DNA from: Devosia sp. 2618
GTDB taxonomy: Bacteria; Pseudomonadota; Alphaproteobacteria; Rhizobiales; Devosiaceae
Assembly: GCF_040546815.1 (NCBI RefSeq)
Contig: NZ_JBEPOO010000001.1
Location: 186,001 to 250,000 of the forward strand
Length of the DNA stretch: 64,000 nucleotides
Direction of reading: 5' to 3'
Positions 10,829 through 61,961 of this stretch are shown here, piece after piece. Each line of letters begins with the position of its first letter. Positions within the stretch are counted from its first letter, which is position 1. A program made the position numbers and the translations under genes. The notes below the pieces were generated by a model, which was given only the letters and a program-made list of their open reading frames with translations, did not search any database and had not been told where the DNA came from.

Positions 10829-10857
10829 CGTCATTCCCGCGCAGGCGGGAATCCATT
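10829..10857 (+). repeat. left inverted repeat, GIY-YIG unit 1
   Basis: A 29-bp repeat containing the palindrome ATTCCC-N8-GGGAAT (10833-10852), bordered by CGTC on the outer side and CCATT on the gene side. The same ATTCCC-N8-GGGAAT form is known from the neisserial dRS3 repeats. An exact inverted copy lies at 11184-11212. Confidence 0.9.
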
Positions 10858-10865
10858 ATTTCGAA

Positions 10866-11168
10866 CTAGCCCCAGTGCCGTGCGAGCTCGTGATAGCGGT
10901 CCAGCCAATGCGGGTTGGCTGTCTCTATAAGGCGGACCTTCCAGGCCCGATTCCATTTCTTGAGTTGCTTTTCACGGGTGATCGCAGATTCAGCACTGTC
11001 GTGGGGTTCGAACCAGACGAGGTCGTGCACTCCATATTGGCGGGTAAAACCGGCGATCAGATCGTTCCGATGCGTATAGGTTCGTCCGATCAGGTCGCTT
11101 GTCACGCCGATATAGATCGTGCCGTTCTTCCCGCTTGCCAGCATGTAGACGCAAAAGAGCTTTTGCAT
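10866..11168 (-). CDS. GIY-YIG domain protein (URI/COG2827 type)
   Basis: A 100-residue single-domain protein of the GIY-YIG nuclease superfamily. CVYMLASGKNGTIYIGVT gives the VYML/IYIG pair that corresponds to GIY and YIG, followed by the catalytic-type arginine region (LIGRTYTHR) and the late glutamate-lysine helix (AITREKQLKKW). Small proteins like this are common in bacteria, but their biological role is unsettled. The ATG at 11168 begins the domain; the frame runs on through the right repeat, adding residues such as SFPRRRES that are translated repeat. It is 42% or so identical by eye to the protein at 20734-21027. Confidence 0.85.
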   Translation of the reverse strand: MQKLFCVYMLASGKNGTIYIGVTSDLIGRTYTHRNDLIAGFTRQYGVHDLVWFEPHDSAESAITREKQLKKWNRAWKVRLIETANPHWLDRYHELARHWG

Positions 11169-11183
11169 GTGCGGCCCTAGAAG

Positions 11184-11212
11184 AATGGATTCCCGCCTGC
11201 GCGGGAATGACG
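11184..11212 (-). repeat. right inverted repeat, GIY-YIG unit 1
   Basis: A perfect inverted copy of 10829-10857. The palindromic core is at 11189-11208. The AATGG end faces the GIY-YIG start codon, mirroring the left copy. Confidence 0.9.
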
Positions 11213-11236
11213 TCGTGTGTCGAACCTTCCCGCCCA

Positions 11237-12262
11237 CTACCCCTCGGTCAACTTGAACTCGATGCGGCGGTTGCGGCGGTAGGCTTCGTCGTTTTGCGCT
11301 GGGTCTAGCGGCGTGAATTCGCCGAAGCCGGCGGCGACCAGTCGGTTGGGCGAGACGCCGCGCGAGACGAGGTAGCGGGCGACCGAGATGGCGCGGGCGG
11401 CCGAGAGTTCCCAGTTGGACGGGAAGCGGGCGTTCGAGATGGGGCGGATATCGGTATGGCCGTCAATGCGGAGGACCCAATTGATATCGGGCGGGATTTC
11501 CTGCTCGAGCTGGAGGATGGCTTCGGCGAGTGCGTCGAGGTCGGGCGTGCCTTGGCTCGAAATATCGGCCTGACCGGGCGCGAACAGCACTTCGGACTGG
11601 AACACGAAACGGTCGCCGACGACGCGGACATCGGCGCGGCCTTCGAGAATTTCGCGGAGGCGGCCGAAGAAATCGGAGCGATAGCGCGAGAGGTCCTGTA
11701 CGCGCTGGGCGAGGGCCAGGTTGAGGCGGCGGCCGAGATCGGCGATCTGGGTCCGGCTTTCGGTATCACGCCCTTCAGAGGCCTCAAGAGCGGCTTCCAA
11801 CGCACCGATCTGGGTGCGGAGGGCTGCCAGTTGCTGATTGAGTAGTGCAACCTGCGCATTGGCTTCGTCCGACAGCTCCTGGGCGCTCAGCAGGTCGTCC
11901 TGCAGGCCTGCAATGGTGCTGTCCTTTTCGCCGAGCCCGACACCGATGCCCGCGAGCTGGCCGGAGAGGCTGGCATTGTCGGCCTGGGCGCTCCCGAGCG
12001 TGGCGGTGAGCGTCGCGATCTGGGTGGTCAGGTCGTCGGAATTGGCACGTTCGAGCTGCAGCAGGTCGGTCAGTTCGGCGATCTGGCTGTTGAGCCGCGC
12101 CAAAGCCGTGTCGCGGCCCTGAATTTCCTGGCCGAGGAAAAACTGGGTCAGCATGAACAGGCTGAGCATGAAAATGATGACGAGCAGCAGGCTCGACAGG
12201 GCGTCAACGAACCCCGGCCAGTAATTGGCCTCCTGCCGCCGACGGGAACGGGCTCCCGGCAT
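11237..12262 (-). CDS. MotB/OmpA-like peptidoglycan-binding membrane protein
   Basis: A 341-residue inner-membrane protein with one N-terminal span (about residues 18-45), a long coiled-coil region (50-190) and a C-terminal OmpA-like domain (about 215-341) that would grip peptidoglycan; IDGHTDIRP and the late NRRIEFKL are OmpA-family motifs. The span begins FVDALSSLLLV, so an aspartate occupies the position of the proton-binding Asp of MotB. It starts 3 bp after the ExbB/MotA-like gene and the two must form a proton-driven channel complex. Similar pairs occur near efp in other rhizobia; the function is not flagellar rotation, as no flagellar genes are near. Confidence 0.87.
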   Translation of the reverse strand: MPGARSRRRQEANYWPGFVDALSSLLLVIIFMLSLFMLTQFFLGQEIQGRDTALARLNSQIAELTDLLQLERANSDDLTTQIATLTATLGSAQADNASLSGQLAGIGVGLGEKDSTIAGLQDDLLSAQELSDEANAQVALLNQQLAALRTQIGALEAALEASEGRDTESRTQIADLGRRLNLALAQRVQDLSRYRSDFFGRLREILEGRADVRVVGDRFVFQSEVLFAPGQADISSQGTPDLDALAEAILQLEQEIPPDINWVLRIDGHTDIRPISNARFPSNWELSAARAISVARYLVSRGVSPNRLVAAGFGEFTPLDPAQNDEAYRRNRRIEFKLTEG

Positions 12263-12265
12263 CGA

Positions 12266-13255
12266 CTAGTCCCGCCGCTCGGTGGTGTCGGCTTGCGACA
12301 GGACGGCCTCGATCAGTTCGCGTAGCTTGGCGTTGGTTTCGCCCTGTTCGGTGATGTGCTTGCGCAGATCGTCCTGCTCGACGCGGATGTGCTTGACCAG
12401 ACCGTCAATGCCGCGGGCCAGTTCGGCCATGGCACGAATGGCGTTTTGCGACGAGTTCTGGTTCTGCATGCTGTCGCCGAGCTTATCGAACATGGCCTGC
12501 ATTTCGGGGCCACCAGCGTTGGCCTGCATGGCGCTGACCGGGTGATCGAGCTCGGTCATGGAGGTCATCCAGTCTTCGAGGTCGGTATAAAAGGCGTTCT
12601 GCGCCTGGCTGGTCTGTAGGTCGAGGAAACCCAGTACCAGCGATCCGGCAAGACCAAATAGTGAGGACGAGAATGCGGTGCCCATGCCCGAAAGCGGCGC
12701 TGCAAGGCCTTCCTTGAGGTTGGCGAACAGGGCTGTGCTGTCGGCCGAGGTGACGTCGAGCGCATTGATGACGCCAGCGACCGAACTCACGGTTTCAAGC
12801 AGACCGTAGAACGTGCCCATGAGGCCAAGGAACACCAGCAGGCCAGTGAGGTAGCGCGAGGTGTCCTTAGCTTCGTCGAGGCGATTGCCGACCGAATCAA
12901 GGATCGAGCGCATCGAGGATGGCGTTATAATCGCCTCGCCGATCCGCTCGCGCAGGATACCGGCGACGGGCGCGAGCAGGATGGGGGGGCGCACATTGGT
13001 GGTGGTGCCGTCCTGCAGGGAATTGACCCACTTCACCTCGGGAAAGAGGCGGATCACCTGCCGGAAGCTCAGAAAAATACCGACGAACAGGGCGAAAAAG
13101 ATCATCGAGTTGATGAACGGATTGGCCCAGAAGAAGGTGATGATCTGGGTGAACAGGATGGCGCCGACGAGCGCAACCAGCACCAGGAAAATCACGATCT
13201 TGATCAGGTAAACGGTCGGACTGGCGAGGTGATAGGGATCGTAGCCTTGCGTCAT
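12266..13255 (-). CDS. MotA/TolQ/ExbB-like proton channel protein
   Basis: A 329-residue polytopic inner-membrane protein. Spans are predicted near residues 16-45, 50-65, 138-163 and 180-215. The segment LVFLGLMGTFYGLLETV and the downstream LSGMGTAFSSSLFGLAGSLVLG form the conserved MotA/TolQ/ExbB channel helices. The C-terminus is polar and helical. I placed the start at the ATG at 13255 (MTQGYDPYH); an earlier in-frame start at 13327 would add a polar leader. It is the first gene of a two-gene unit with the MotB/OmpA-like protein, 3 bp apart. A possible partner in envelope or peptidoglycan energetics is inferred. Confidence 0.87.
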   Translation of the reverse strand: MTQGYDPYHLASPTVYLIKIVIFLVLVALVGAILFTQIITFFWANPFINSMIFFALFVGIFLSFRQVIRLFPEVKWVNSLQDGTTTNVRPPILLAPVAGILRERIGEAIITPSSMRSILDSVGNRLDEAKDTSRYLTGLLVFLGLMGTFYGLLETVSSVAGVINALDVTSADSTALFANLKEGLAAPLSGMGTAFSSSLFGLAGSLVLGFLDLQTSQAQNAFYTDLEDWMTSMTELDHPVSAMQANAGGPEMQAMFDKLGDSMQNQNSSQNAIRAMAELARGIDGLVKHIRVEQDDLRKHITEQGETNAKLRELIEAVLSQADTTERRD

Positions 13256-13403
13256 CTTGCCTGAACCTTGCCCCCGTACAGCCAAATCACTTGTGCGCAG
13301 ACTAGTTAGCGCGCGCGGGCGGGGCAATCACAAAGGTTAATGGTGTTGGAGGTGTGATCGTGGATTGGGCATCGATGGATGTCTGGGGCGCGGGATCTTG
13401 AAC

Positions 13404-13440
13404 AAAAAAGCTCTCCAACGCTGAATGTCGCTGGAGAGCT
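13404..13440 (-). terminator. terminator after inositol monophosphatase gene
   Basis: A 9-bp stem (13409-13417 with 13432-13440) with a 14-nt loop reads on the minus strand into TTTTTTG. It lies 23 bp past the inositol monophosphatase stop and separates the efp unit from the channel genes. Confidence 0.82.
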
Positions 13441-13463
13441 ACATTGTGACCTGGTCAGTCGAG

Positions 13464-14258
13464 TTACTGAATCGGGCGCAGTTCCTTGAGCAGGGCTGGC
13501 TGCAGATATTCGTTGCCGGCAACGATCTGGCCGTTCCAGACCGAACCGGTCGTGCCGGCATAATCGGAAACGAAACCGCCGGCTTCCTTGACGGCGAGCA
13601 GGCCGGGCGCGACGTCCCATGGCGCCAATCCGGCTTCCCAGATCGCATCGTAGCGGCCGGCGGCGAGCCAGGCCATGTCCATCGAGATCGAGCCCGAGCG
13701 GCGGATGCCGGCGACCGCTGGCGTGATATGGGCCAGCTGGCGCAGCTGCAGGCCGTCATTGGACGTGCCCTGAGTCTTGATGCCGGTGCAGATCACGGCA
13801 TCGGACAGCGAGCGACGACCGGCAACGCGCAGGCGCTTGCGGTCATTGAGCCAGGTGCCGCCACCTTTTTCGGCGGTGTAGAGTTCGTCGAGCACTGGAT
13901 TGTAGATCACCGAGGCGACGATCTCGTTGGCGCGTTCAAGGGCGATGGCCACGGCAAAAAGCGGGATCGAGTGCAGGAAATTGGTGGTGCCATCGAGCGG
14001 GTCGATGATCCAGCGGTGCTGGCCGTCGGTGCCTTTTACCTCGCCGCCTTCTTCCATGAGGAAGGCATAGGTCGGACGCGCCTTGAGCAGTTCGTCATAG
14101 ACGATCTGTTCGGCGCGCAGGTCGGCCTTGGAGACGAAATCGGCCGGGCCCTTGCGGGAAACCTGCAGGTTTTCGACTTCGTTGAAGTCCTTGGTCAGGG
14201 ATTTGCCGGCCTTGATGGCGGCGCTGACCATGACATTGAGGATAGCTGAACGTGCCAT
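13464..14258 (-). CDS. suhB: inositol monophosphatase family protein
   Basis: A 264-residue magnesium-dependent phosphatase of the IMPase/SuhB family, which hydrolyses inositol-1-phosphate and related sugar phosphates. It shows the metal-binding motifs EEGG (motif 0 region), DPLDGTTNFLHSIP (motif 1) and WDVAPG (motif 2). Length and N-terminus are typical. It starts 3 bp after the efp stop, so the two genes form an operon ended by the hairpin at 13404-13440. Whether it also has the antitermination role known for E. coli SuhB cannot be told here. Confidence 0.92.
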   Translation of the reverse strand: MARSAILNVMVSAAIKAGKSLTKDFNEVENLQVSRKGPADFVSKADLRAEQIVYDELLKARPTYAFLMEEGGEVKGTDGQHRWIIDPLDGTTNFLHSIPLFAVAIALERANEIVASVIYNPVLDELYTAEKGGGTWLNDRKRLRVAGRRSLSDAVICTGIKTQGTSNDGLQLRQLAHITPAVAGIRRSGSISMDMAWLAAGRYDAIWEAGLAPWDVAPGLLAVKEAGGFVSDYAGTTGSVWNGQIVAGNEYLQPALLKELRPIQ

Positions 14259-14261
14259 GGT

Positions 14262-14828
14262 TTAGTCCGCCCGACGCATGTAAGTGGCTTCTGTGGTGTC
14301 GACGACGATGCGTTCGCCGACGGCGATGAATGGGGGCACCATGACCTTGAGGCCATTGCTGAGAATTGCCGGCTTGAACTGGCTGGAAACGCTCTGGCCC
14401 TTCTGCACCGGATCAACTTCGGTGACTTCGAGCACGACGTTGGCTGGGAACTTGATGCCCAGTGGGGTTTCTTCGTGCATTTCGAGCGTGATCTTCATGC
14501 CGTCCTGCAGGAACGCGGCGCGTTCGCCGACGAAGTCCTTGGGCAGTTCGACCTGCTCGTAGGTGTTCTGGTCCATGAAGACGAGGTTGTCGCCCTGCTC
14601 ATAGAGATAGGTGAAATCGCGGAATTCGAGCTCGACGGTCTCGACGGTCTCAGCGGACCGGAAACGTTCGTTGAGCTTGGTGCCGCCGAGGATGGCCTTG
14701 AGTTCGACCTGGGCATAGGCGCCGCCCTTGCCGGGCTTGACGTGATCGACCTTTACCGCGACCCACAAACGGTCCTGGTGATTGACGACGTTGCCGGGGC
14801 GGATTTCGTTGCCGTTGATCTTGGCCAT
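14262..14828 (-). CDS. efp: elongation factor P
   Basis: EF-P enters the ribosomal E site and relieves stalling at polyproline stretches. The 188-residue protein has the expected three beta-barrel domains. Lys34 in the [10 protein letters not shown] loop is the site modified by beta-lysylation in EpmA-containing bacteria. The ATG at 14828 ([15 protein letters not shown]) gives the normal length; 12 upstream codons in frame are rejected. Products elsewhere in the window that are rich in proline, such as TolA, would depend on it. It leads the efp-suhB unit. Confidence 0.97.
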
Positions 14829-14950
14829 GCGGGTTTTGCTTTCGGGTACCGAATTGTCGGTCAAGGCCTACGCGCCGGATGCGGCGGGCCGATGATGATG
14901 GATTGAGCTGAAGGAGCGTGGCGGCTTATTGCCCCAGAACGCCCGTTGGT

Positions 14951-16042
14951 TCAAGGGTCTTGCGGTTCGGGCGGCGCGGTGGAGGCTGGCGCTTCGCCGC
15001 TATCGGTTGGTGCGGGCAGCACAGGGCCGCCGACCTGAGGGGTGGTCGGGATTTCAAGAACTGTCTCGATGCGGGGCGGTGTCGAGGGCCAGAAGCGGGC
15101 GCGTTCTTCGGCGCGGGCAAGCTGGGCAGGCGGAATAGAAATCAGCAAACGATCCAGCGATGGGTCCGACAGGCCCTGGCGGCGGGCAAGGGCGCGCCAC
15201 ATCGCCGCTTCTTCGAGATCGAGCGACACGCCTTCGCCGACGGCGAGCAGCTTGGCATAGCGGTTCTGGGCCACGGCATTGCCGGATTCGGCGGCGCGCA
15301 AATACCAGAGGGCAGCCGTTGCGACGTCCTGATCGACGCCCTGACCAAGATAGAGCAGGGTGGCATAGTCGATCTGTGCGGCGACAAGGCCCTGCTGCGC
15401 GGCAAGCTTGAGATAGCCAGCACCGGCGGCAACGTCAGGCGCAACGCCGGCGCCTTCGATCAGCATGCTGGCATAGTCGTACTGCGCTTCGGGCAGTTCG
15501 GCGTCGGCGGCTTCCTTCATCAGGCCAGCGGCGGTCACAAGGCTTGGCGTGGCGTAGATGCCCTCAACATGGAGCAGGGCCATGTTGTATTTGGCGGGGA
15601 TATAGCCGGCGGCGGCGGCCTTGTTGAACAGGTCAGCGGCGCGGGCACGGTTTTTCGGCACGCCGATGCCGTCCTGATAATAGAGCGCCAGCTCGAACGT
15701 TGCGAGGCGATCGCCGCCATTGGCAGCAAGCTGATACCAGCCTGCGGCGCGCTGATCGTTCTGTGCAACGCCGAGGCCCTTGGCGTAGATCTCGGCGATC
15801 AGGGTCTGGGCGGCGGCGTCGCCTTTTTCGGCACGTGGCAGGGCAAATTCGAGGGCGGTCAGGAAATAGCCGCGCTGGAAGGCGCCAAAGGCGTAGTCGC
15901 TGGGGACGCGTGGCCCAAAGATCTGGTCGGAAATGGCATCAGCCGGTGCAGCCGCAGGAGGGGTGGCGGGCTCCGCTTCCTGTGCGAAGGCGCAGACGGG
16001 CGTGAAAGCAATGAGTGCGGTCAGCAGGAGACGGCGCATCAT
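14951..16042 (-). CDS. secreted Sel1-repeat protein
   Basis: A 363-residue periplasmic protein. Residues 1-20 form a signal peptide with a cleavage site after AFA. The body holds about six Sel1-type TPR repeats (consensus AAQ.....Y..G.GV..D...A..W...AA), between residues about 70 and 300. The C-terminal 60 residues are proline-rich. Sel1 proteins such as ExoR serve as periplasmic regulators or scaffolds, but this one lacks a clear orthologue assignment. Its ATG overlaps the stop of the upstream thiE-like gene (ATGA-type overlap), so they are translationally coupled. Confidence 0.85.
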   Translation of the reverse strand: MMRRLLLTALIAFTPVCAFAQEAEPATPPAAAPADAISDQIFGPRVPSDYAFGAFQRGYFLTALEFALPRAEKGDAAAQTLIAEIYAKGLGVAQNDQRAAGWYQLAANGGDRLATFELALYYQDGIGVPKNRARAADLFNKAAAAGYIPAKYNMALLHVEGIYATPSLVTAAGLMKEAADAELPEAQYDYASMLIEGAGVAPDVAAGAGYLKLAAQQGLVAAQIDYATLLYLGQGVDQDVATAALWYLRAAESGNAVAQNRYAKLLAVGEGVSLDLEEAAMWRALARRQGLSDPSLDRLLISIPPAQLARAEERARFWPSTPPRIETVLEIPTTPQVGGPVLPAPTDSGEAPASTAPPEPQDP

Positions 16043-16635
16043 GCGTTTTCTCCAAGGCTGGCAACGATCGCTGCGACAGCCTGAGCGGGATTGGCAGCCG
16101 ACCAGACGCTGTCGGAGAGCGCGAAGAATTCAGCACCGCGTGCGTCGACTGTGTCGGCGGCCGGCTGGCTCAGAACGGCTGGAATTTCAAAGGTCTCTGC
16201 CCACCACTGGCCAAGATCGGCGGCTGTTGCATCGTCGACGCCATCGAGGGGACCAAAAAACACGTAGTCGATGTCCATTTCGCCAGCGGTCATCGCATCG
16301 TGGCGCGACGGCACATTGGCAGCGCCGACGATCATGGCGGGCTTAAGCGCGGCGATGGCAGTCTTGATCGCGGCCGGGCCCTTGGTGATGTGGACGCCAT
16401 CGGCGCCGAGGCGCTTGGTCAGCGCGATATCGTCTTCGATCAGCACGGCGCAGCCGGCGCCCTGGCCGACATTGACGATGGCGGCTGCGAGACGGCCATA
16501 GGCGGCGTCATCCATCGCGCCGCGGCTGACCAGCAGCGCGGAGAATTCGGCAGCGTTGAGCACAGCCATCAGGGTGGCGGGAAAGCTCTCCGGCTCGGCA
16601 TTGGCAGGTGTAATCAGATAAAGCTGGGGGGCCAT
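16039..16635 (-). CDS. thiamine-phosphate synthase-like (ThiE/TenI) protein
   Basis: A 198-residue TIM-barrel protein of the ThiE/TenI family, which joins the pyrimidine and thiazole halves of thiamine or isomerises the thiazole. QLYLITP starts the first strand; CAVLIEDDIALTKRLGADGVHI matches the ThiE phosphate-binding region, and VFFGPLDGVDD the later substrate loop. In ThiE the latter loop usually reads GP.F.T.TK, so the sequence is divergent and catalytic activity is uncertain. It lies far from the thiBPQ genes and is coupled to a Sel1 gene. Confidence 0.75.
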   Translation of the reverse strand: MAPQLYLITPANAEPESFPATLMAVLNAAEFSALLVSRGAMDDAAYGRLAAAIVNVGQGAGCAVLIEDDIALTKRLGADGVHITKGPAAIKTAIAALKPAMIVGAANVPSRHDAMTAGEMDIDYVFFGPLDGVDDATAADLGQWWAETFEIPAVLSQPAADTVDARGAEFFALSDSVWSAANPAQAVAAIVASLGENA

Positions 16636-16733
16636 GGCTTCCGGTACTCGACGCGAACTACTCTTCTTGTCTGCCTATTTTGGCGAAAAGAGGAAGGCCA
16701 TCCAATAGGCGATGGCCGGAGCGGGCGCAAAGA

Positions 16734-16765
16734 AAATGCGCGCCACCGGGGGGAGGCGCGCATTT
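16734..16765 (-). terminator. terminator of class I aldolase gene
   Basis: A perfect 11-bp stem (16734-16744 with 16755-16765) with a 10-nt loop reads on the minus strand into TTTTCTTT. It lies 28 bp beyond the aldolase stop codon. Confidence 0.85.
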
Positions 16766-16792
16766 GTCGTCAATTTGAAGCGGTCGACGGCC

Positions 16793-17821
16793 TTAAGCGG
16801 CGCGGTCGAGCGCGTTGTTCCAGGTGCCCAGAGCGGCCAACGAGTTCATATGGGCGCGGTGGGTGAAGGCGGCCTGTGCCTGCGGGAAGTTCTCGCGACG
16901 ACCGGCCCAGGTGCGCAGGGCAACGTTTTGCAGGGCGCGGCCATAGGAGAAGGTCAGTGGCCAAGGCTTGCCGCCGATCTGGTTCATGGCGGAGAGATGG
17001 GCGGTGGCTTCTTCGTCGGTCTGGCCGCCCGACAGGAAGGCAATGCCGGGAACGGCGGCTGGCACATGCTCGCGCAGCACTTCGACAGTGCGGCGGGCGA
17101 CGTCTTCGACCGTCGGCCGATCGCGCGAATTGATGCCGGGCAGGACCATGTTTGGCTTGAGCAGCATGCCCGAGAGGTCAACGCCGGCCAGACGCAGTTC
17201 CTTGAAGACGTTTTCCAGCACTTCGCCGGTCACTTGGGCGCAACGCTCCAGCGAGTGATTGCCGGGTTCGCCATCGCCAACCACTTCGGGCTCGACGACA
17301 GGCACAATGCCAGCTTCCTGGCAGAGAATGGCGTAGCGGGCCAGCGAGTGGGCATTGGCGCGGATATTGTTGCGGGTCGGGGCGACGTCATTGATGGTGA
17401 TCACGGCGCGCCACTTGGCAAAGCCGGCGCCAAGATCGGCGTAGCGCACGAGGCGCTGGCGCAGGCCATCGAGGCCTTCGGTGATCTTTTCACCGCTATC
17501 GCCGGGCATCGGGAACGCGCCGCGGTCGACCTTGATGCCGGGGATAACGTCGGCATCGGCAAGGATCGAACGGAATGCAGTGCCGTCGGCAGCCGATTGT
17601 TCCAGCGTTTCTTCAGTCAGGATGACGCCGGAAATGTAGTTTTTCATTGCATTGGTCGAGCGAAACAGCATTTCGCGGTAATCGCGACGCAGATCGAGCG
17701 AGTTGGGGAGGTTAATCTTGGCGAACCGCTTGGCAATTGTGCCCTCGGATTCGTCAGCAGCCAGAATGCCCTTGCCGGGCTCCATGAGTTTCTGGGCAAC
17801 AGCATTGAGCGACTTCGTCAT
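16793..17821 (-). CDS. class I fructose-bisphosphate aldolase
   Basis: A 342-residue Schiff-base aldolase that cleaves fructose-1,6-bisphosphate in glycolysis and reverses this in gluconeogenesis. It is of the eukaryote-like class I type. Visible motifs are ILAADESEGTIAKRF near the N-terminus, KWRAVI, VEPEVV, and LLKPNMVLPG with the lysine that forms the Schiff base. FLSGGQ follows. The protein ends in alanine rather than tyrosine. It has its own terminator and lies next to pgk, gapA and tkt, making a carbon-metabolism cluster. Confidence 0.95.
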   Translation of the reverse strand: MTKSLNAVAQKLMEPGKGILAADESEGTIAKRFAKINLPNSLDLRRDYREMLFRSTNAMKNYISGVILTEETLEQSAADGTAFRSILADADVIPGIKVDRGAFPMPGDSGEKITEGLDGLRQRLVRYADLGAGFAKWRAVITINDVAPTRNNIRANAHSLARYAILCQEAGIVPVVEPEVVGDGEPGNHSLERCAQVTGEVLENVFKELRLAGVDLSGMLLKPNMVLPGINSRDRPTVEDVARRTVEVLREHVPAAVPGIAFLSGGQTDEEATAHLSAMNQIGGKPWPLTFSYGRALQNVALRTWAGRRENFPQAQAAFTHRAHMNSLAALGTWNNALDRAA

Positions 17822-17918
17822 GAATACCTCAGCAGTTTGGGTTGCTTTAAGTATTATACTTTGGTTAGGCCGATATCGATTAGACCTGTGGTTATGCGAC
17901 TAAAGTTAGAGCCGCATT

Positions 17919-18383
17919 CTAGGCCGCTTCAAGTGCCGCGATATCGAGTTTTTTCATTTCCAGCATGACTTCGAGGACCCGTTTGGCACGGGCTCGATCG
18001 GGGCTGGCGATCAGCTCGATCAGCCGCTTGGGGACGATCTGCCAGGAGACGCCAAAGCGGTCCTTGGCCCAGCCACATTGCTCGGCCTCGGGAACGGCCG
18101 AAAGCGCCTGCCAATAGCGGTCGACCTCTGCCTGATCGTCGCAGAGCAGTTGCAGCGAAATGGCTTCATTGAACTTGAAATAGTCGCCGCCATTGAGGGC
18201 GGTATAGGCTTTGCCGGCGAGCGTAAACTCCACCGTCAGCACCTCGCCCTCTTTGACTGAGGGGTTATCAGCGGGCGAAAGAACGCGCTGGTTGATGCGG
18301 CTATCGGGGATCAGCTCCGTGTAAAAACGGGCCATTTCCTCGGCATTGTTATTGCACCATAGGCACGGCGTTATCTTGTCCAT
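17919..18383 (-). CDS. PhnB-like VOC superfamily protein
   Basis: A 154-residue protein of the vicinal oxygen chelate superfamily, PhnB/3-demethylubiquinone-methyltransferase-like group. It starts MDKITPCLWCNNNAEEMARFY, the typical opening of these proteins, and has the family motifs TALNGG and GWAKDRFGVSWQIVP. The function of this group is not known. The ATG at 18383 has GGAGG 6 nt upstream and is preferred to the GTG one codon earlier. It lies between the aldolase gene and pgk on the same strand. Confidence 0.85.
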   Translation of the reverse strand: MDKITPCLWCNNNAEEMARFYTELIPDSRINQRVLSPADNPSVKEGEVLTVEFTLAGKAYTALNGGDYFKFNEAISLQLLCDDQAEVDRYWQALSAVPEAEQCGWAKDRFGVSWQIVPKRLIELIASPDRARAKRVLEVMLEMKKLDIAALEAA

Positions 18384-18458
18384 CACATACCTCCGCCACT
18401 GTGGGTGGAGGTAAACGCGGCACGACGAAAAGCGTTCGCCGTGCTGCGTGTTCGTTGC

Positions 18459-19661
18459 TTATTTCTTGAGGGCTTCGACGCCGGGCAGGGGCTTGCCTTC
18501 CATCCATTCGAGGAACGCGCCGCCAGCCGTCGAAACATAGGTCAGGGCGTCCTTGACGCCGGCATGGGCCAGCGCGCCAACGGTGTCGCCGCCACCAGCG
18601 ACCGAGACCAGCTTGCCGTCATGGGTGCGCTTGGCGACATGCTTGGCAATGGCGACGGTACCCGCATCGAACGGGTTCATTTCAAAAGCGCCGACCGGGC
18701 CATTCCAGACCACGGTATTGGCATCGTCGATGGCGCCCAGAATGCGCTCGACCGAGGATGGGCCGATGTCGAGGATCATGCCATCGGGGTCGATGGCGTC
18801 GACGCCGTAGAGGCGGGTCGGGGTGTCGGCCTTGAAGTGCCAGGCGACGACCGCGTCGATCGGCAGGATGATGGCGCAGCCGCTATCGACGGCCTTTTCC
18901 ATGATGCGGATGGCGGTTTCGGCGAGGTCTTTTTCGCATAGCGACTTGCCGACGCTGACGCCCTGCGCATGCAGGAAGGTATTGGCCATGCCGCCGCCGA
19001 TGACGAGCGCATCGACCTTGGTGACGAGGTTTTCGAGCAGGTCGATCTTGGACGACACCTTGGCGCCGCCAACGATGGCAACGACCGGCTTCTTGGGCTT
19101 GCCGAGGCCGGATTCGAGCGCTTCGAGTTCGGCCTGCATAGCAAGGCCGGCAGCTGCCGGCAGCAGGTGGGCCAAAGCTTCGGTCGAAGCATGAGCGCGA
19201 TGGGCGGCGGAGAAGGCGTCGTTGACATAAACGTCGCCGAGGCTTGCCATGCGCTTGGCCAGTTCAACATCATTGGCTTCTTCGCCGGGATGGAAACGGG
19301 TGTTTTCCATGATCAGCACCGAGCCAGCCGGCGCATCGTCGATGGCCTGCCTGGCAGCGGTCACATCGGTCCAGTCGGTGGAGACAAAGCCAACCGGATG
19401 GCCGGTTTCATTGGCGACGGCGGCGCAGACCTGTTCCAGCGAGAATTCAGGATCGACCTTGCCCTTTGGACGGCCGAAATGGCTGAGCAGGATCACCTTG
19501 GCATCGTGCTTGACGATGACGCGAATAGTGGGGACCAGCCGCTCGATGCGGGTGGCATCGGTCACCTTGCCGTCAGCGACCGGCACGTTGAGATCGGCCC
19601 GGAGCAGCACACGCTTGTTGTTCAGGTCAAGCTCGTCGAGGGTCTTGAAGGTTGCGGACAT
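18459..19661 (-). CDS. pgk: phosphoglycerate kinase
   Basis: Pgk transfers phosphate between 1,3-bisphosphoglycerate and ADP. The 400-residue product begins MSATFKTLDELDLNNKRVLL and contains RADLNVPV and SHFGRPKG, the substrate-binding motifs of the N-lobe, and later GGGDTVGAL of the nucleotide-binding C-lobe. The frame stays open for 89 codons upstream to 19928, but the ATG at 19661 gives the family length and normal N-terminus. The upstream 411-bp interval is gene-free and structured. The next genes on the same strand upstream are a glycolipid-binding protein and gapA-tkt. Confidence 0.97.
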   Translation of the reverse strand: MSATFKTLDELDLNNKRVLLRADLNVPVADGKVTDATRIERLVPTIRVIVKHDAKVILLSHFGRPKGKVDPEFSLEQVCAAVANETGHPVGFVSTDWTDVTAARQAIDDAPAGSVLIMENTRFHPGEEANDVELAKRMASLGDVYVNDAFSAAHRAHASTEALAHLLPAAAGLAMQAELEALESGLGKPKKPVVAIVGGAKVSSKIDLLENLVTKVDALVIGGGMANTFLHAQGVSVGKSLCEKDLAETAIRIMEKAVDSGCAIILPIDAVVAWHFKADTPTRLYGVDAIDPDGMILDIGPSSVERILGAIDDANTVVWNGPVGAFEMNPFDAGTVAIAKHVAKRTHDGKLVSVAGGGDTVGALAHAGVKDALTYVSTAGGAFLEWMEGKPLPGVEALKK

Positions 19662-20072
19662 GCTGGAGTCTCCCAAGGCTGGATCGTGGCCCTTCGCGTA
19701 GCAGAGCGGCGGCGAGGGGGGAAGCGCAGCGATGAAGAATCGTTGGGCAGTCGTGAGAAAGTGCCGCCCGGCCCTTTGGCGTCGCGGTTTCACTGTAACG
19801 GGCGGCCGTTGGACCTGAAAAGTCAGTAGAGTGGCCCAAGGGCCGCCCGTCACGATCCGCTCTTTGGGCGAGGTCCGGTTCAGGCGGTACCATTCTTGCA
19901 GGTCCGGCTGCCGAGTTTCCAACCCCACTGGACAGGCGCCCCCATCCCACGGTCTCCCCGCCCGGCCCTGCGTCGGGGCCGCGTGATGGCGGGAATGGGC
20001 ACATTGTGCGGCAGGTTTGCGGGGCGGGGATAACTATATCGAAATCTCGCAAAACCATCCGGGAACAGCGGT
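19662..20072 (-). other. GC-rich structured leader upstream of pgk
   Basis: No convincing gene is seen in these 411 bp. A perfect 10-bp inverted repeat (19798-19807 with 19841-19850) encloses a 33-nt loop that contains a further short hairpin (ACCTGAAAAGTCAG region). Two minus-strand frames are open across much of it, but they lack family resemblance. It may be a long 5' leader for pgk or an unassigned RNA. I checked for tmRNA, RNase P and SRP RNA signatures and saw none. Confidence 0.3.
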
Positions 20073-20603
20073 TCAGGAGCGGACGAACACGCCCGGATAG
20101 TCCTCCACCAGCAGATCCGCATCGACTTCGAGCACGCGTTCGAAATCGGCGGACTGGAAGCGGAAGTGGGTTGCGTCGAGCTGGGTGTAGATCTGTTCGC
20201 TGCGGCGGACCGCCATTGCGTCGGCATCGATCCAGGCCATGGCGAAGCGTTGCGGCTGGTTGAGTGCCCAGTCGCAGCGCCACAGCGGCAGCGAATTGGT
20301 CAGGGGCGTTGGCCAGATGTCGATATCGATGCAGCCGCGCAGGTCTGAAAGCGGCTCGGCGCGATCATCGGACCAGTTGCCGGCGCCATCGGAGAACAGT
20401 TCAAGCACCGCGCCATCAGTGCGTTCGAGTTTGACGGTGCGGACGTGCTCGGTGTCATCCAGCTTGATGCGGTAGTAGAGGCCATAGGTGGGCGTGATGA
20501 TCGTGCCGCGAATACGGGTGTCGCGTTCGGTCGAGATGACGTGGCAGTGCTCGATTGTGGCTGGGTCCAGGCCTTGCCAGCGTATGGATCGGTCAAGGCT
20601 CAT
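20073..20603 (-). CDS. putative glycolipid-binding domain protein
   Basis: A 176-residue protein of the putative glycolipid-binding family (PF06475, formerly DUF1089). It begins MSLDRSIRWQGLDPATIEHC and has the conserved AYRI/YYRIKLD strand, WPTPLTNSLPLWR and the late IDADAMAVRRSEQIYT segment. Structures in the family show a lipocalin-like barrel; the ligand is not established. It is monocistronic as far as can be seen. Palindrome copies of the second GIY-YIG unit begin 32 bp upstream. Confidence 0.82.
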   Translation of the reverse strand: MSLDRSIRWQGLDPATIEHCHVISTERDTRIRGTIITPTYGLYYRIKLDDTEHVRTVKLERTDGAVLELFSDGAGNWSDDRAEPLSDLRGCIDIDIWPTPLTNSLPLWRCDWALNQPQRFAMAWIDADAMAVRRSEQIYTQLDATHFRFQSADFERVLEVDADLLVEDYPGVFVRS

Positions 20604-20634
20604 TTTCGGTTTCTCTTGCCGATTTTGTTTGAAG

Positions 20635-20691
20635 ATGGATCACCCGGACAAGCCGGGTGATGACGATGTCCGGAGAATAATGCGACCCAAA
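20635..20691 (+). repeat. direct repeat copy A, GIY-YIG unit 2
   Basis: A 57-bp sequence whose first part is the palindrome ATCACCCGG-ACAAG-CCGGGTGAT between ATGG and GACG. It recurs, with two or three differences, at 21048-21104 in the same orientation. The shared length reaches 26 bp beyond the palindrome, so the two copies result from duplication of a larger segment. Confidence 0.85.
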
Positions 20692-20703
20692 TTGTCCAAC
20701 CAC

Positions 20704-20734
20704 CGTCATTGCCCGGCTCGTCCGGGCAATCCAT
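20704..20734 (-). repeat. inverted palindrome next to second GIY-YIG gene
   Basis: The 31-bp element starts CGTCATT, holds the stem GCCCGG/CCGGGC and ends AATCCAT. It is an inverted relative of 20635-20665 and 21048-21078. Two stem pairs differ between this copy and the others and do so in a compensated way (CA/TG changed to TG/CA). Its end overlaps the last base of the GIY-YIG stop codon. Confidence 0.85.
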
Positions 20735-21027
20735 CACTGGGCATCCAACAACCACGAACCAACATCCTGCCACTCCGGATTGACCGCTTCGATCAGGTTG
20801 ATCTTCCACTGCCGCGGATATTTCTTGATCGCCTTTTCGCGCCGGATCGCATCGATAACCAGATCATGCTCCTCGATCCAGACAAGCGTCTTAACCCCGT
20901 ATCGCGCGGTAAACCCTGGGGTAAGCGCATGCTGGTGCTCAAACCAGCGCCGCGACGGATTGGACGTTACACCAGTATAGAGCGTGCCGTTCTTTTTCGA
21001 CGCAAGGATGTAGACGTAGCCCTTCAT
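20734..21027 (-). CDS. GIY-YIG domain protein, second copy
   Basis: A 97-residue single-domain GIY-YIG protein. GYVYILASKKNGTLYTGVT carries the GIY-like (VYIL) and YIG-like (LYTG) strands; NPSRRWFEHQ supplies the arginine region and AIRREKAIKKYPRQWKINLIE the last helix with the metal-binding-type glutamate. It is a clear paralogue of the protein at 10866-11168. The start may be the ATG at 21027 or that at 21039; the former begins directly before the domain. It is enclosed by inverted palindromes at 20704-20734 and 21048-21078. Confidence 0.85.
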   Translation of the reverse strand: MKGYVYILASKKNGTLYTGVTSNPSRRWFEHQHALTPGFTARYGVKTLVWIEEHDLVIDAIRREKAIKKYPRQWKINLIEAVNPEWQDVGSWLLDAQ

Positions 21028-21047
21028 GTCCCCAAACATGGCGCGAA

Positions 21048-21104
21048 ATGGATCACCCGGACAAGCCGGGTGATGACGATGTCGGGGAAATAATGCGACC
21101 CAAA
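21048..21104 (+). repeat. direct repeat copy B, GIY-YIG unit 2
   Basis: The second copy of the 57-bp repeat at 20635-20691. Its palindrome (21048-21078) lies 20 bp upstream of the GIY-YIG start and forms an inverted pair with 20704-20734. It ends next to the gapA terminator. Confidence 0.85.
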
Positions 21105-52488: not shown

Positions 52489-52602
52489 TACCCCCACCCA
52501 ACCTCCCCCTGATAGGGGGAGGGGCTGATCGAGTAAGTGGCGAGATGTGCTGCCGACTCGGAGCTGTTCCTCCCCCTATCAGGGGGAGGCTAGGTGAGGG
52601 TA
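52489..52602. repeat. inverted repeat between serC and serA
   Basis: Two 34-bp arms (52489-52522 and 52569-52602) are inverted copies with three mismatches. Each arm contains its own palindrome, CCTCCCCCTGATAGGGGGAGG. The 46 bp between them hold no gene. The same layout recurs between thiB and thiP at 61839-61961 with related but different arms. Confidence 0.85.
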
Positions 52603-59424: not shown

Positions 59425-59505
59425 GCTGCCCTCGGACTTGATCCGAGGGCAACTCACAATCCGGCACAAGCGGTAAGGGACCCTCGGATCAAGTCCGAGG
59501 GCAGC
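59425..59505. repeat. inverted repeat with CCCTCGGA palindromes
   Basis: Two 25-bp arms (59425-59449 and 59481-59505) are exact inverted copies, and each contains the palindromic CCCTCGGA-CTTGA-TCCGAGGG type core. The 31 bp between hold no gene. It lies between the large membrane protein gene and thiQ, where the two converge. Confidence 0.85.
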
Positions 59506-61838: not shown

Positions 61839-61961
61839 CCCCCACCCTTGATCCCTCCCCACGAGGGGGAGGGAGCTGACTGAAGACTTGGTTGGCATAA
61901 CGTATCCGCAGGCATGAGGCTGGCGTCCCTCCCCCTTGTGGGGAGGGAATGAGGGTGGGGG
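61839..61961. repeat. inverted repeat between thiB and thiP
   Basis: Two 36-bp arms (61839-61874 and 61926-61961) are inverted copies with four mismatches. Each arm contains the palindrome CCCTCCCC-AC-GAGGGGGAGGG type. The layout matches the serC-serA repeat at 52489-52602. In the transcript the arms could fold into a strong hairpin that affects thiPQ relative to thiB. Confidence 0.85.

Follow-up and report, generated by a model that had tools for sequence, protein, structure and literature searches.

Two GIY-YIG nuclease genes lie between inverted palindromes

The stretch of DNA analysed here, which we call the window, comprises 64,000 nucleotides of Devosia sp. 2618 (contig NZ_JBEPOO010000001.1, positions 186,001 to 250,000) and contains two small genes for GIY-YIG nucleases, each enclosed by a pair of inverted palindromes (units A and B, Table 1). 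The first-pass annotation had described two GIY-YIG units of the same order and orientation, and this arrangement is indeed present: in both, a small PF01541 gene stands between the tails of the palindromes, whose tags face outward. Two details of that description hold only in part. The inner sequence AATCCAT, said to be kept, is found in three of the four palindromes and is missing from one, and a single stem type per unit is true of unit A but not of unit B, where the gene-upstream arm carries ATCACCCGG and the gene-downstream arm ATTGCCCGG. A Pfam scan of proteins A and B returned PF01541 and no other domain. Across 29 sequences, Y10, Y21, G23, R31, H35, E68, and N87 (protein B numbering) are invariant, residues that we take to be the catalytic set of GIY-YIG proteins, and Lys73 of protein B is the equivalent of residue 71 of protein A. 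The profile match, the conserved Tyr, Arg, His, and Glu, and the predicted fold agree with membership of the GIY-YIG superfamily.

The 37-nt arms of unit A are 92% complementary, and within its 100-bp flanks the best inverted 28-mer match is 28/28, compared to a maximum of 19 in 200 simulations. The excess at unit B is modest (23/28, with a simulated maximum of 20). Unit B is also surrounded by a 57-bp direct repeat, whose copies are 95% alike and which pairs an extra type-B palindrome with the gene-upstream palindrome of the unit. A chance origin of the palindromes was rejected on the basis of these flank simulations and of the displaced-position control described below.

A third unit of like plan was found elsewhere in the same genome, at G000:C1:4223558 (locus L003; G000 denotes the genome of the window), with a small PF01541 gene and the stem GCCCTCGGG-CTTGA. 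Its palindromes (type C) have a CGCT tag and GC in place of AT at the first stem positions, and more palindromes of this type adjoin the unit. Beyond proteins A and B the genome gives two PF01541 matches, namely this third small gene and a 689-residue frame taken as UvrC, and it holds three small paralogues with three stem types. Apart from the gene-less pair listed last in Table 1, the window contains two more pairs of hairpins with 9-bp stems, CCTCCCCCT and TCCCTCCCC, at 52502-52589 and 61852-61948, which perhaps represent other palindrome families.

Table 1. Features of units A and B and a gene-less palindrome pair, in window positions (pLDDT, predicted local distance difference test).
Feature	Positions	Strand	Details
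Unit A palindrome, gene-downstream side	10829..10856	+	CGTC tag, stem ATTCCCGC, loop GCAG, tail CCA
Unit A GIY-YIG nuclease gene	10866..11168	-	100 aa, Lys at residue 71; PF01541 E 3.8e-15
Unit A palindrome, gene-upstream side	11186..11212	-	inverted copy (ATTCCCGC)
Left copy of 57-bp direct repeat around unit B	20635..20691	.	palindrome and non-palindromic flank
Additional type-B palindrome adjoining unit B	20636..20665	-	ATCACCCGG
Unit B palindrome, gene-downstream side	20704..20733	+	CGTC tag, stem ATTGCCCGG, loop CTCGT, tail CCA
Unit B GIY-YIG nuclease gene	20734..21039	-	101 aa; PF01541 E 3.1e-14; model pLDDT 90.8
Right copy of 57-bp direct repeat around unit B	21048..21104	.	
Unit B palindrome, gene-upstream side	21049..21078	-	ATCACCCGG, loop CTTGT
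Palindrome pair without gene	59427..59501	.	near third-unit type, (G)CCCTCGGA stems

The palindromes match CGTC-tagged REPs

Repetitive extragenic palindromic (REP) sequences with a CGTC tag are defined, in the sections of Di Nocera et al. 2013 (PMC3733652) drawn on here, by that tag, a stem of 8 or 9 bp, a loop of 4 or 5 nt, and a CCA tail. According to the same sections they comprise four families, occur mostly as head-to-head (HH) dimers, are known from five phyla, and include dRS3 of Neisseria (the CGTC-1 family in Neisseriae) and RPE-4 and RPE-6 of Rickettsia; they 'apparently lack a dedicated transposase', and their origin was left open in 2013 (PMC3733652). The palindromes of units A and B have all four features, tag, stem, loop, and tail, and judging by sequence they fit this published orphan REP superfamily, a point absent from the first-pass annotation. 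A homologue in Neisseria gonorrhoeae lies among ATTCCCGC palindromes, whose 8-bp stem and 4-nt loop are the build of the CGTC-1 family. The likeness thus covers tag, stem, loop, tail, and the mostly head-to-head dimers, whereas the 2013 description is without a dedicated enzyme and here a GIY-YIG gene is paired with the repeats.

The word GIY is absent from PMC3733652, and a 2025 survey of REPs contains no match for GIY, transposase, or RAYT (REP-associated tyrosine transposase). Among the matches listed in the open-licence full text of PubMed Central (PMC), which does not cover subscription journals and preprints, we found no link of CGTC-tagged REPs with GIY-YIG genes, and GIY-YIG never occurs there together with dRS3 or with 'extragenic palindromic'. 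Small GIY-YIG genes were earlier discussed as UvrC-like repair genes (PMC1839093, in the portion relevant here), and the 2006 survey of the superfamily asked, in the portion used here, whether more of its members may be molecular parasites (PMC1564403).

Matched hairpins flank GIY-YIG genes beyond the genus

The survey drew homologues from three sources: the genus and order; named records spanning several phyla, where the best 80 among 586 confirmed relatives were kept; and the phylum, to which 92 of 299 genomes contributed. Within the genus, 39 of 61 genomes had homologues in the first collection and 43 of 61 at E<=1e-10. The flank test kept 215 of 243 units after removal of hits shorter than 210 bp and duplicates, and then the 206 of these with 200 bp on each side. 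Stem-matched hairpins lie within 250 bp on both sides in 131/206 units, compared to 8/1458 displaced positions at the same loci, with matched pairs in 72/101 units from the genus and order, 46/77 from the named records, and 13/28 from the phylum. Loci from a plasmid collection gave a matched pair in 8/12. The tags of 264 scored hairpins are CGTC in 166, GTC in 67, CTC in 13, and other in 18. These flanks indicate that the system extends past rhizobia, beyond the scope of the first-pass annotation. That most such genes might lack flanking palindromes, a possibility raised there, is not what we found in the genus, where 74 of 78 units could be typed, each having one or more polar-loop hairpins (the remainder lacked such a hairpin or were duplicates), nor in the first set with its 131/206 matched units; in the lower-scoring loci fetched later, units with a matched pair are the minority (32/80).

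Four divergent GIY genes of the genus (L331-L334) had no matched hairpins. The UvrC gene of the same genome was unusable as a flank control, the query having matched nothing in its locus. Genes of the family are usually annotated as 'GIY-YIG nuclease family protein', 'putative endonuclease', or 'excinuclease ABC subunit C'. Two loci, L336 (Rhizobium tumorigenes) and L337 (Sinorhizobium meliloti), have a ATTCCTGTG-type palindrome adjoining a second GC-rich hairpin (GCGCCGC-type), which together form a bipartite repeat next to the GIY gene. On a Planktothrix plasmid (L342, 1498-3261), a palindrome-free GIY-YIG gene stands between an MmeI-type restriction gene and the DISARM gene drmA.

Palindrome type tracks the protein clade

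Protein and stem distances were compared over 135 units, comprising the 131 matched ones and 4 near contig ends, and are correlated (Mantel r 0.444, permutation maximum 0.103). In 99/135 units the stem of the closest protein neighbour differs by no more than one base, the corresponding fraction for random partners being 0.26. On the protein tree the stem class changes 44 times, compared to 78.7 after shuffling (minimum 72, 200 shuffles), and the loop length 10 times, compared to 38.1 (minimum 32). To allow for shared species history, palindromes were also shuffled among the paralogues inside each genome. For the 74 typed units of the genus, the mean distance to the palindrome of the closest-protein partner in another genome is 2.38, while the null gives 3.23 (sd 0.116, minimum 2.76 of 2000; p<=0.0005), and over 559 close partners the palindrome is nearer than those of that genome's other paralogues in 485, farther in 19, and tied in 55. 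Shared ancestry of genome and gene alone was rejected by this shuffle.

These comparisons indicate that palindrome type tracks protein clade and not genome. The proposal of the first-pass annotation, that the nucleases and palindromes are pairs that diverged together as a GIY-YIG analogue of RAYT-REP, is supported by the Mantel test, the changes on the tree, and the within-genome shuffle, and an unlinked distribution of type and clade across genomes, which it had asked about, was seen in none of the three.

One residue covaries with one stem base

The column of Lys71 in protein A (motif REKxxK-71-W) stands out with respect to base -3 of the stem, the third counting from the loop. In 89 units with 4-nt-loop palindromes its normalised mutual information is 0.54, compared to 0.07 for the median column, and in the discovery set Lys goes with C in 45/51 and Glu or Asp with G in 25/25. 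The residue-base prediction was written down before 80 new loci were fetched. In the 4-nt-loop units of these loci, Lys occurs with C in 9/11, Glu or Asp with G in 4/4, and Ala with A in 3/3. The whole unused set, made up of the new loci, the plasmid loci, and one-sided units (with a 4-nt-loop palindrome in 67/172), gives 28/32, 16/17, and 5/5 for the same three combinations (Fisher p 6.7e-9, Lys or acid against C or G), and column 71 again ranks first there, for base -3 only, with column 73 second. Units of the third type, with TCGGG stems and 5-nt loops, mostly have Arg or His at column 71 (25/25).

Independent contrasts gave 19 pairs differing in base, of which 16 agree in residue and 0 oppose (p 3e-5; medians of 200 pairings made with our own code over all branches of a midpoint-rooted FastTree tree from which the columns around 71 had been removed). 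Lys73 is the last residue of helix 61-73 in the protein B model (pLDDT 90.8), and the invariant Glu68 belongs to this helix. The chemistry would fit, with Lys facing the G of the base pair and Glu or Asp facing the C. The covariation of residue and base supports recognition of its own palindrome by the enzyme.

Copies without a gene, empty sites, and direct repeats

The genome of the window has 51 type-B palindromes (<=2 mismatches), compared to 0 for a reversed-pattern control. Three of them belong to unit B and its neighbour, and the remaining 48 are spread over 28 regions. Of these regions, 21 are dimers that combine a ATTGCCCGG-type arm with an arm of another kind, like the surroundings of gene B. 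In a second genome (G021), 7/7 regions picked as pairs are dimers with that arm make-up. The spacer measures 22 bp in 14/19 dimers found in loci L295-L314. The genome of the window has fewer palindromes of types A and C, with 10 and 8 exact copies. Across the 61 genus genomes, the median number of type-A copies is 10 in the 11 genomes with the cognate gene and 0 in the 50 without (p 1.5e-4), and that of type-B copies 47 in 9 genomes and 0 in 52 (p 8e-5), medians that count the units' own palindromes too. The test is weak for type C, counted for the TGCCCTCGGG subtype only (4 genomes with the gene, p 0.037; Fisher p 0.19). Three genomes without a GIY match at E<=1e-10 are rich in CGTC palindromes, namely G013 (76 of type B), G023 (84 of type A), and G081 (31 of a CCGGG variant); the enzyme may have been lost or be distant, or the palindromes may move in trans.

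The genes also occupy varied sites. In nine genomes, B-like genes (76-91% identity with gene B) occupy six different sites, as judged from shared neighbouring open reading frames in the available stretches. The gap occupied by unit A contains a unit in G067, a disrupted gene in G071, and a single palindrome in G033, and measures 2-13 bp in G029, G074, G024, and G084; both neighbours were present at 20/30 loci for site A and at 29/30 for site B, several of the latter with only part of GAPDH. The gap between sufB and sufC measures 617 bp in Azospirillum lipoferum 4B, where it holds a unit, and 91 bp in A. ramasamyi, 87 bp in A. oryzae, 129 bp in strain B510, and 55 bp in A. thermophilum. The unit is absent at sites 94.6-95.9% identical in their common part; no clean target-site duplication was resolved at this site. 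A Shinella site looks empty in PSBB067 (35-bp gap) and in S. zoogloeoides XJ20 (overlapping genes), and has a gap of 638 bp in H4-D48.

A direct repeat common to both 600-bp flanks was found at 97/205 units, compared to 3/137 displaced positions, with a median length of 85 bp (>=60 bp in 61 units and >=100 bp in 39). In many cases it comprises a whole palindrome dimer, spacer included, and this plan, like that of long terminal repeats (LTRs), points to some solo dimers being remnants of units since lost. A search for RAYT-type Y1_Tnp (PF01797) found none in 58/61 genus genomes and none in the genome of the window at E<=0.001; spread by RAYTs was rejected, with Y1_Tnp in only 3/61 genus genomes and the window's own genome without it.

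A candidate enzyme for an orphan REP superfamily

The closest parallel is RAYT-REP (REPtrons, REPINs). Both have a small nuclease gene enclosed by palindromes in inverted orientation, gene-less dimers scattered elsewhere, paralogues that differ in their palindromes within a genome, and the pairing of enzyme and repeat, which is described for RAYTs in the sections of PMC3733652 drawn on above. The RAYT-REP enzyme is of the HUH/Y1 kind (IS200/IS605-like) and its tag is GTAG, whereas here the enzyme is GIY-YIG and the tag CGTC. Inverted flanking palindromes and cognate pairing are found in our units, while the HUH domain and GTAG tag of RAYT-REP are not, so they are not members; they would work like RAYT-REP and are a new enzyme/repeat pair in a known type of arrangement. 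To our knowledge no DNA-linking catalytic tyrosine is expected in a GIY-YIG enzyme, and the chemistry must differ from that of RAYTs for this reason. Unlike free-standing GIY-YIG homing endonucleases (I-TevI), the proteins have no further Pfam domain, and the palindrome itself flanks the gene. For Slx1 and the bacterial UPF0213/YhbQ-like proteins, no palindromic partner is reported among the matches listed in the open-licence literature. Penelope-like elements likewise have a GIY-YIG domain in a mobile element (PMC1564403, in the portion used here), whereas our proteins lack a reverse transcriptase domain and consist of one domain of ~100 residues.

We propose that each unit is probably a REPtron-like pair, selfish or domesticated, in which a putatively Slx1-like GIY-YIG nuclease recognises, probably cuts, and spreads its own palindrome. 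From the anatomy and pairing, the co-divergence, the covariation of residue and base, the dispersed dimers of like build, the empty sites, and the varied sites of related genes, we infer binding, cutting, and enzyme-driven spread. A single-domain endonuclease with a putative Slx1-like fold, encoded between inverted CGTC-tagged palindromes, would read these palindromes, and residue 71, which ends the helix bearing the conserved Glu, would specify the third base pair from the loop. The palindrome would be nicked or cut, most likely in an extruded hairpin or cruciform form, and the unit and, more often, gene-less dimers would then be copied as the freed DNA is repaired or re-inserted. An enzyme that recognises and spreads the palindrome would thus be the dedicated enzyme that CGTC-tagged REPs were said to lack. 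A broader claim seems to us evenly poised between true and false: that GIY-YIG proteins are the dedicated mobilisers of CGTC-tagged REPs across bacteria, with a one-residue code at stem base -3 (Lys reading C, Glu or Asp G, and Ala A or T) and spread without a covalent intermediate, which would amount to a second, independent invention of the REP lifestyle with a new transposition chemistry.

Several observations weigh against the proposed pair. A matched pair is absent in 75/206 units and in 48/80 of the further, lower-scoring loci; with 32/80 present there, the matched pair turns into a minority at greater distance. Genes from Planktothrix and Spirosoma have no perfect hairpin of >=7 bp within 250 bp. 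The nearest matched hairpins are tag-outward in only 72/135 units, which the LTR-like plan may explain. Trees of ~95 residues are poorly supported and only 1/11 pairs falls on well-supported branches; these being too few, the contrast test takes all branches, many of them weak. Gene and copy number are but loosely tied, and strict linkage did not hold: among the 52 genomes without a B-like gene, 11 carry >=10 type-B copies, and G013 has its 76 copies with no GIY match. In G022, which has a B-like gene, the variant palindrome is limited to 3 copies close to that gene, and the amplification of the CCGGG variant predicted for this genome failed. We know of no GIY-YIG enzyme that makes a covalent DNA intermediate, which leaves the re-insertion step without a known chemistry.

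A free-standing homing endonuclease is the alternative that fares best, and on balance we consider it unlikely. The gene-less dimer would be the empty site, the enzyme would cut it, break repair would copy the gene between the arms, and the dimers would spread in some other way. The gene does sit between arms built like gene-less dimers, in place of a spacer that mostly measures 22 bp there (14/19), GIY-YIG is a classic homing-enzyme domain (PMC1564403, in the portion used here), and the direct repeats in the flanks are often whole dimers. Homing nevertheless leaves the many dimers unexplained, copies of a type are enriched in genomes with the cognate gene, and unit A has one palindrome at each end and no dimer. 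We hold it doubtful, and less probable again, that the protein is a domesticated host enzyme of DNA repair or repeat maintenance, with the palindromes as its binding or cutting sites and mobility a thing of the past. The patchy distribution in the genus (43/61 genomes), the presence in one genome of several paralogues whose stems differ, disrupted copies, varied chromosomal sites, and stems that change together with the protein would be unusual for a housekeeping repair gene. A passive association, in which RAYTs or some other transposase move the palindromes and the gene is there by accident, is very improbable: CGTC-type palindromes are abundant in several genomes, can reach many copies without a cognate gene, and would by density alone place some of their number beside any gene, but matched pairs occur at only 8/1458 displaced positions, shuffling among paralogues within genomes destroys the match, hitchhiking gives no reason for the residue-base covariation, and no Y1 transposase was found in 58/61 genus genomes.

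The proposed pair of nuclease and palindrome would supply the enzyme that a described orphan superfamily of repeats has been missing, one that includes dRS3 of Neisseria and RPE-4 and RPE-6 of Rickettsia, and a GIY-YIG family with generic annotations would gain a function. It reduces palindrome recognition to one residue and one base pair, in a form that can be tested. If it is true that the enzyme moves the palindrome, bacteria would own a second, unrelated machine for spreading REPs.

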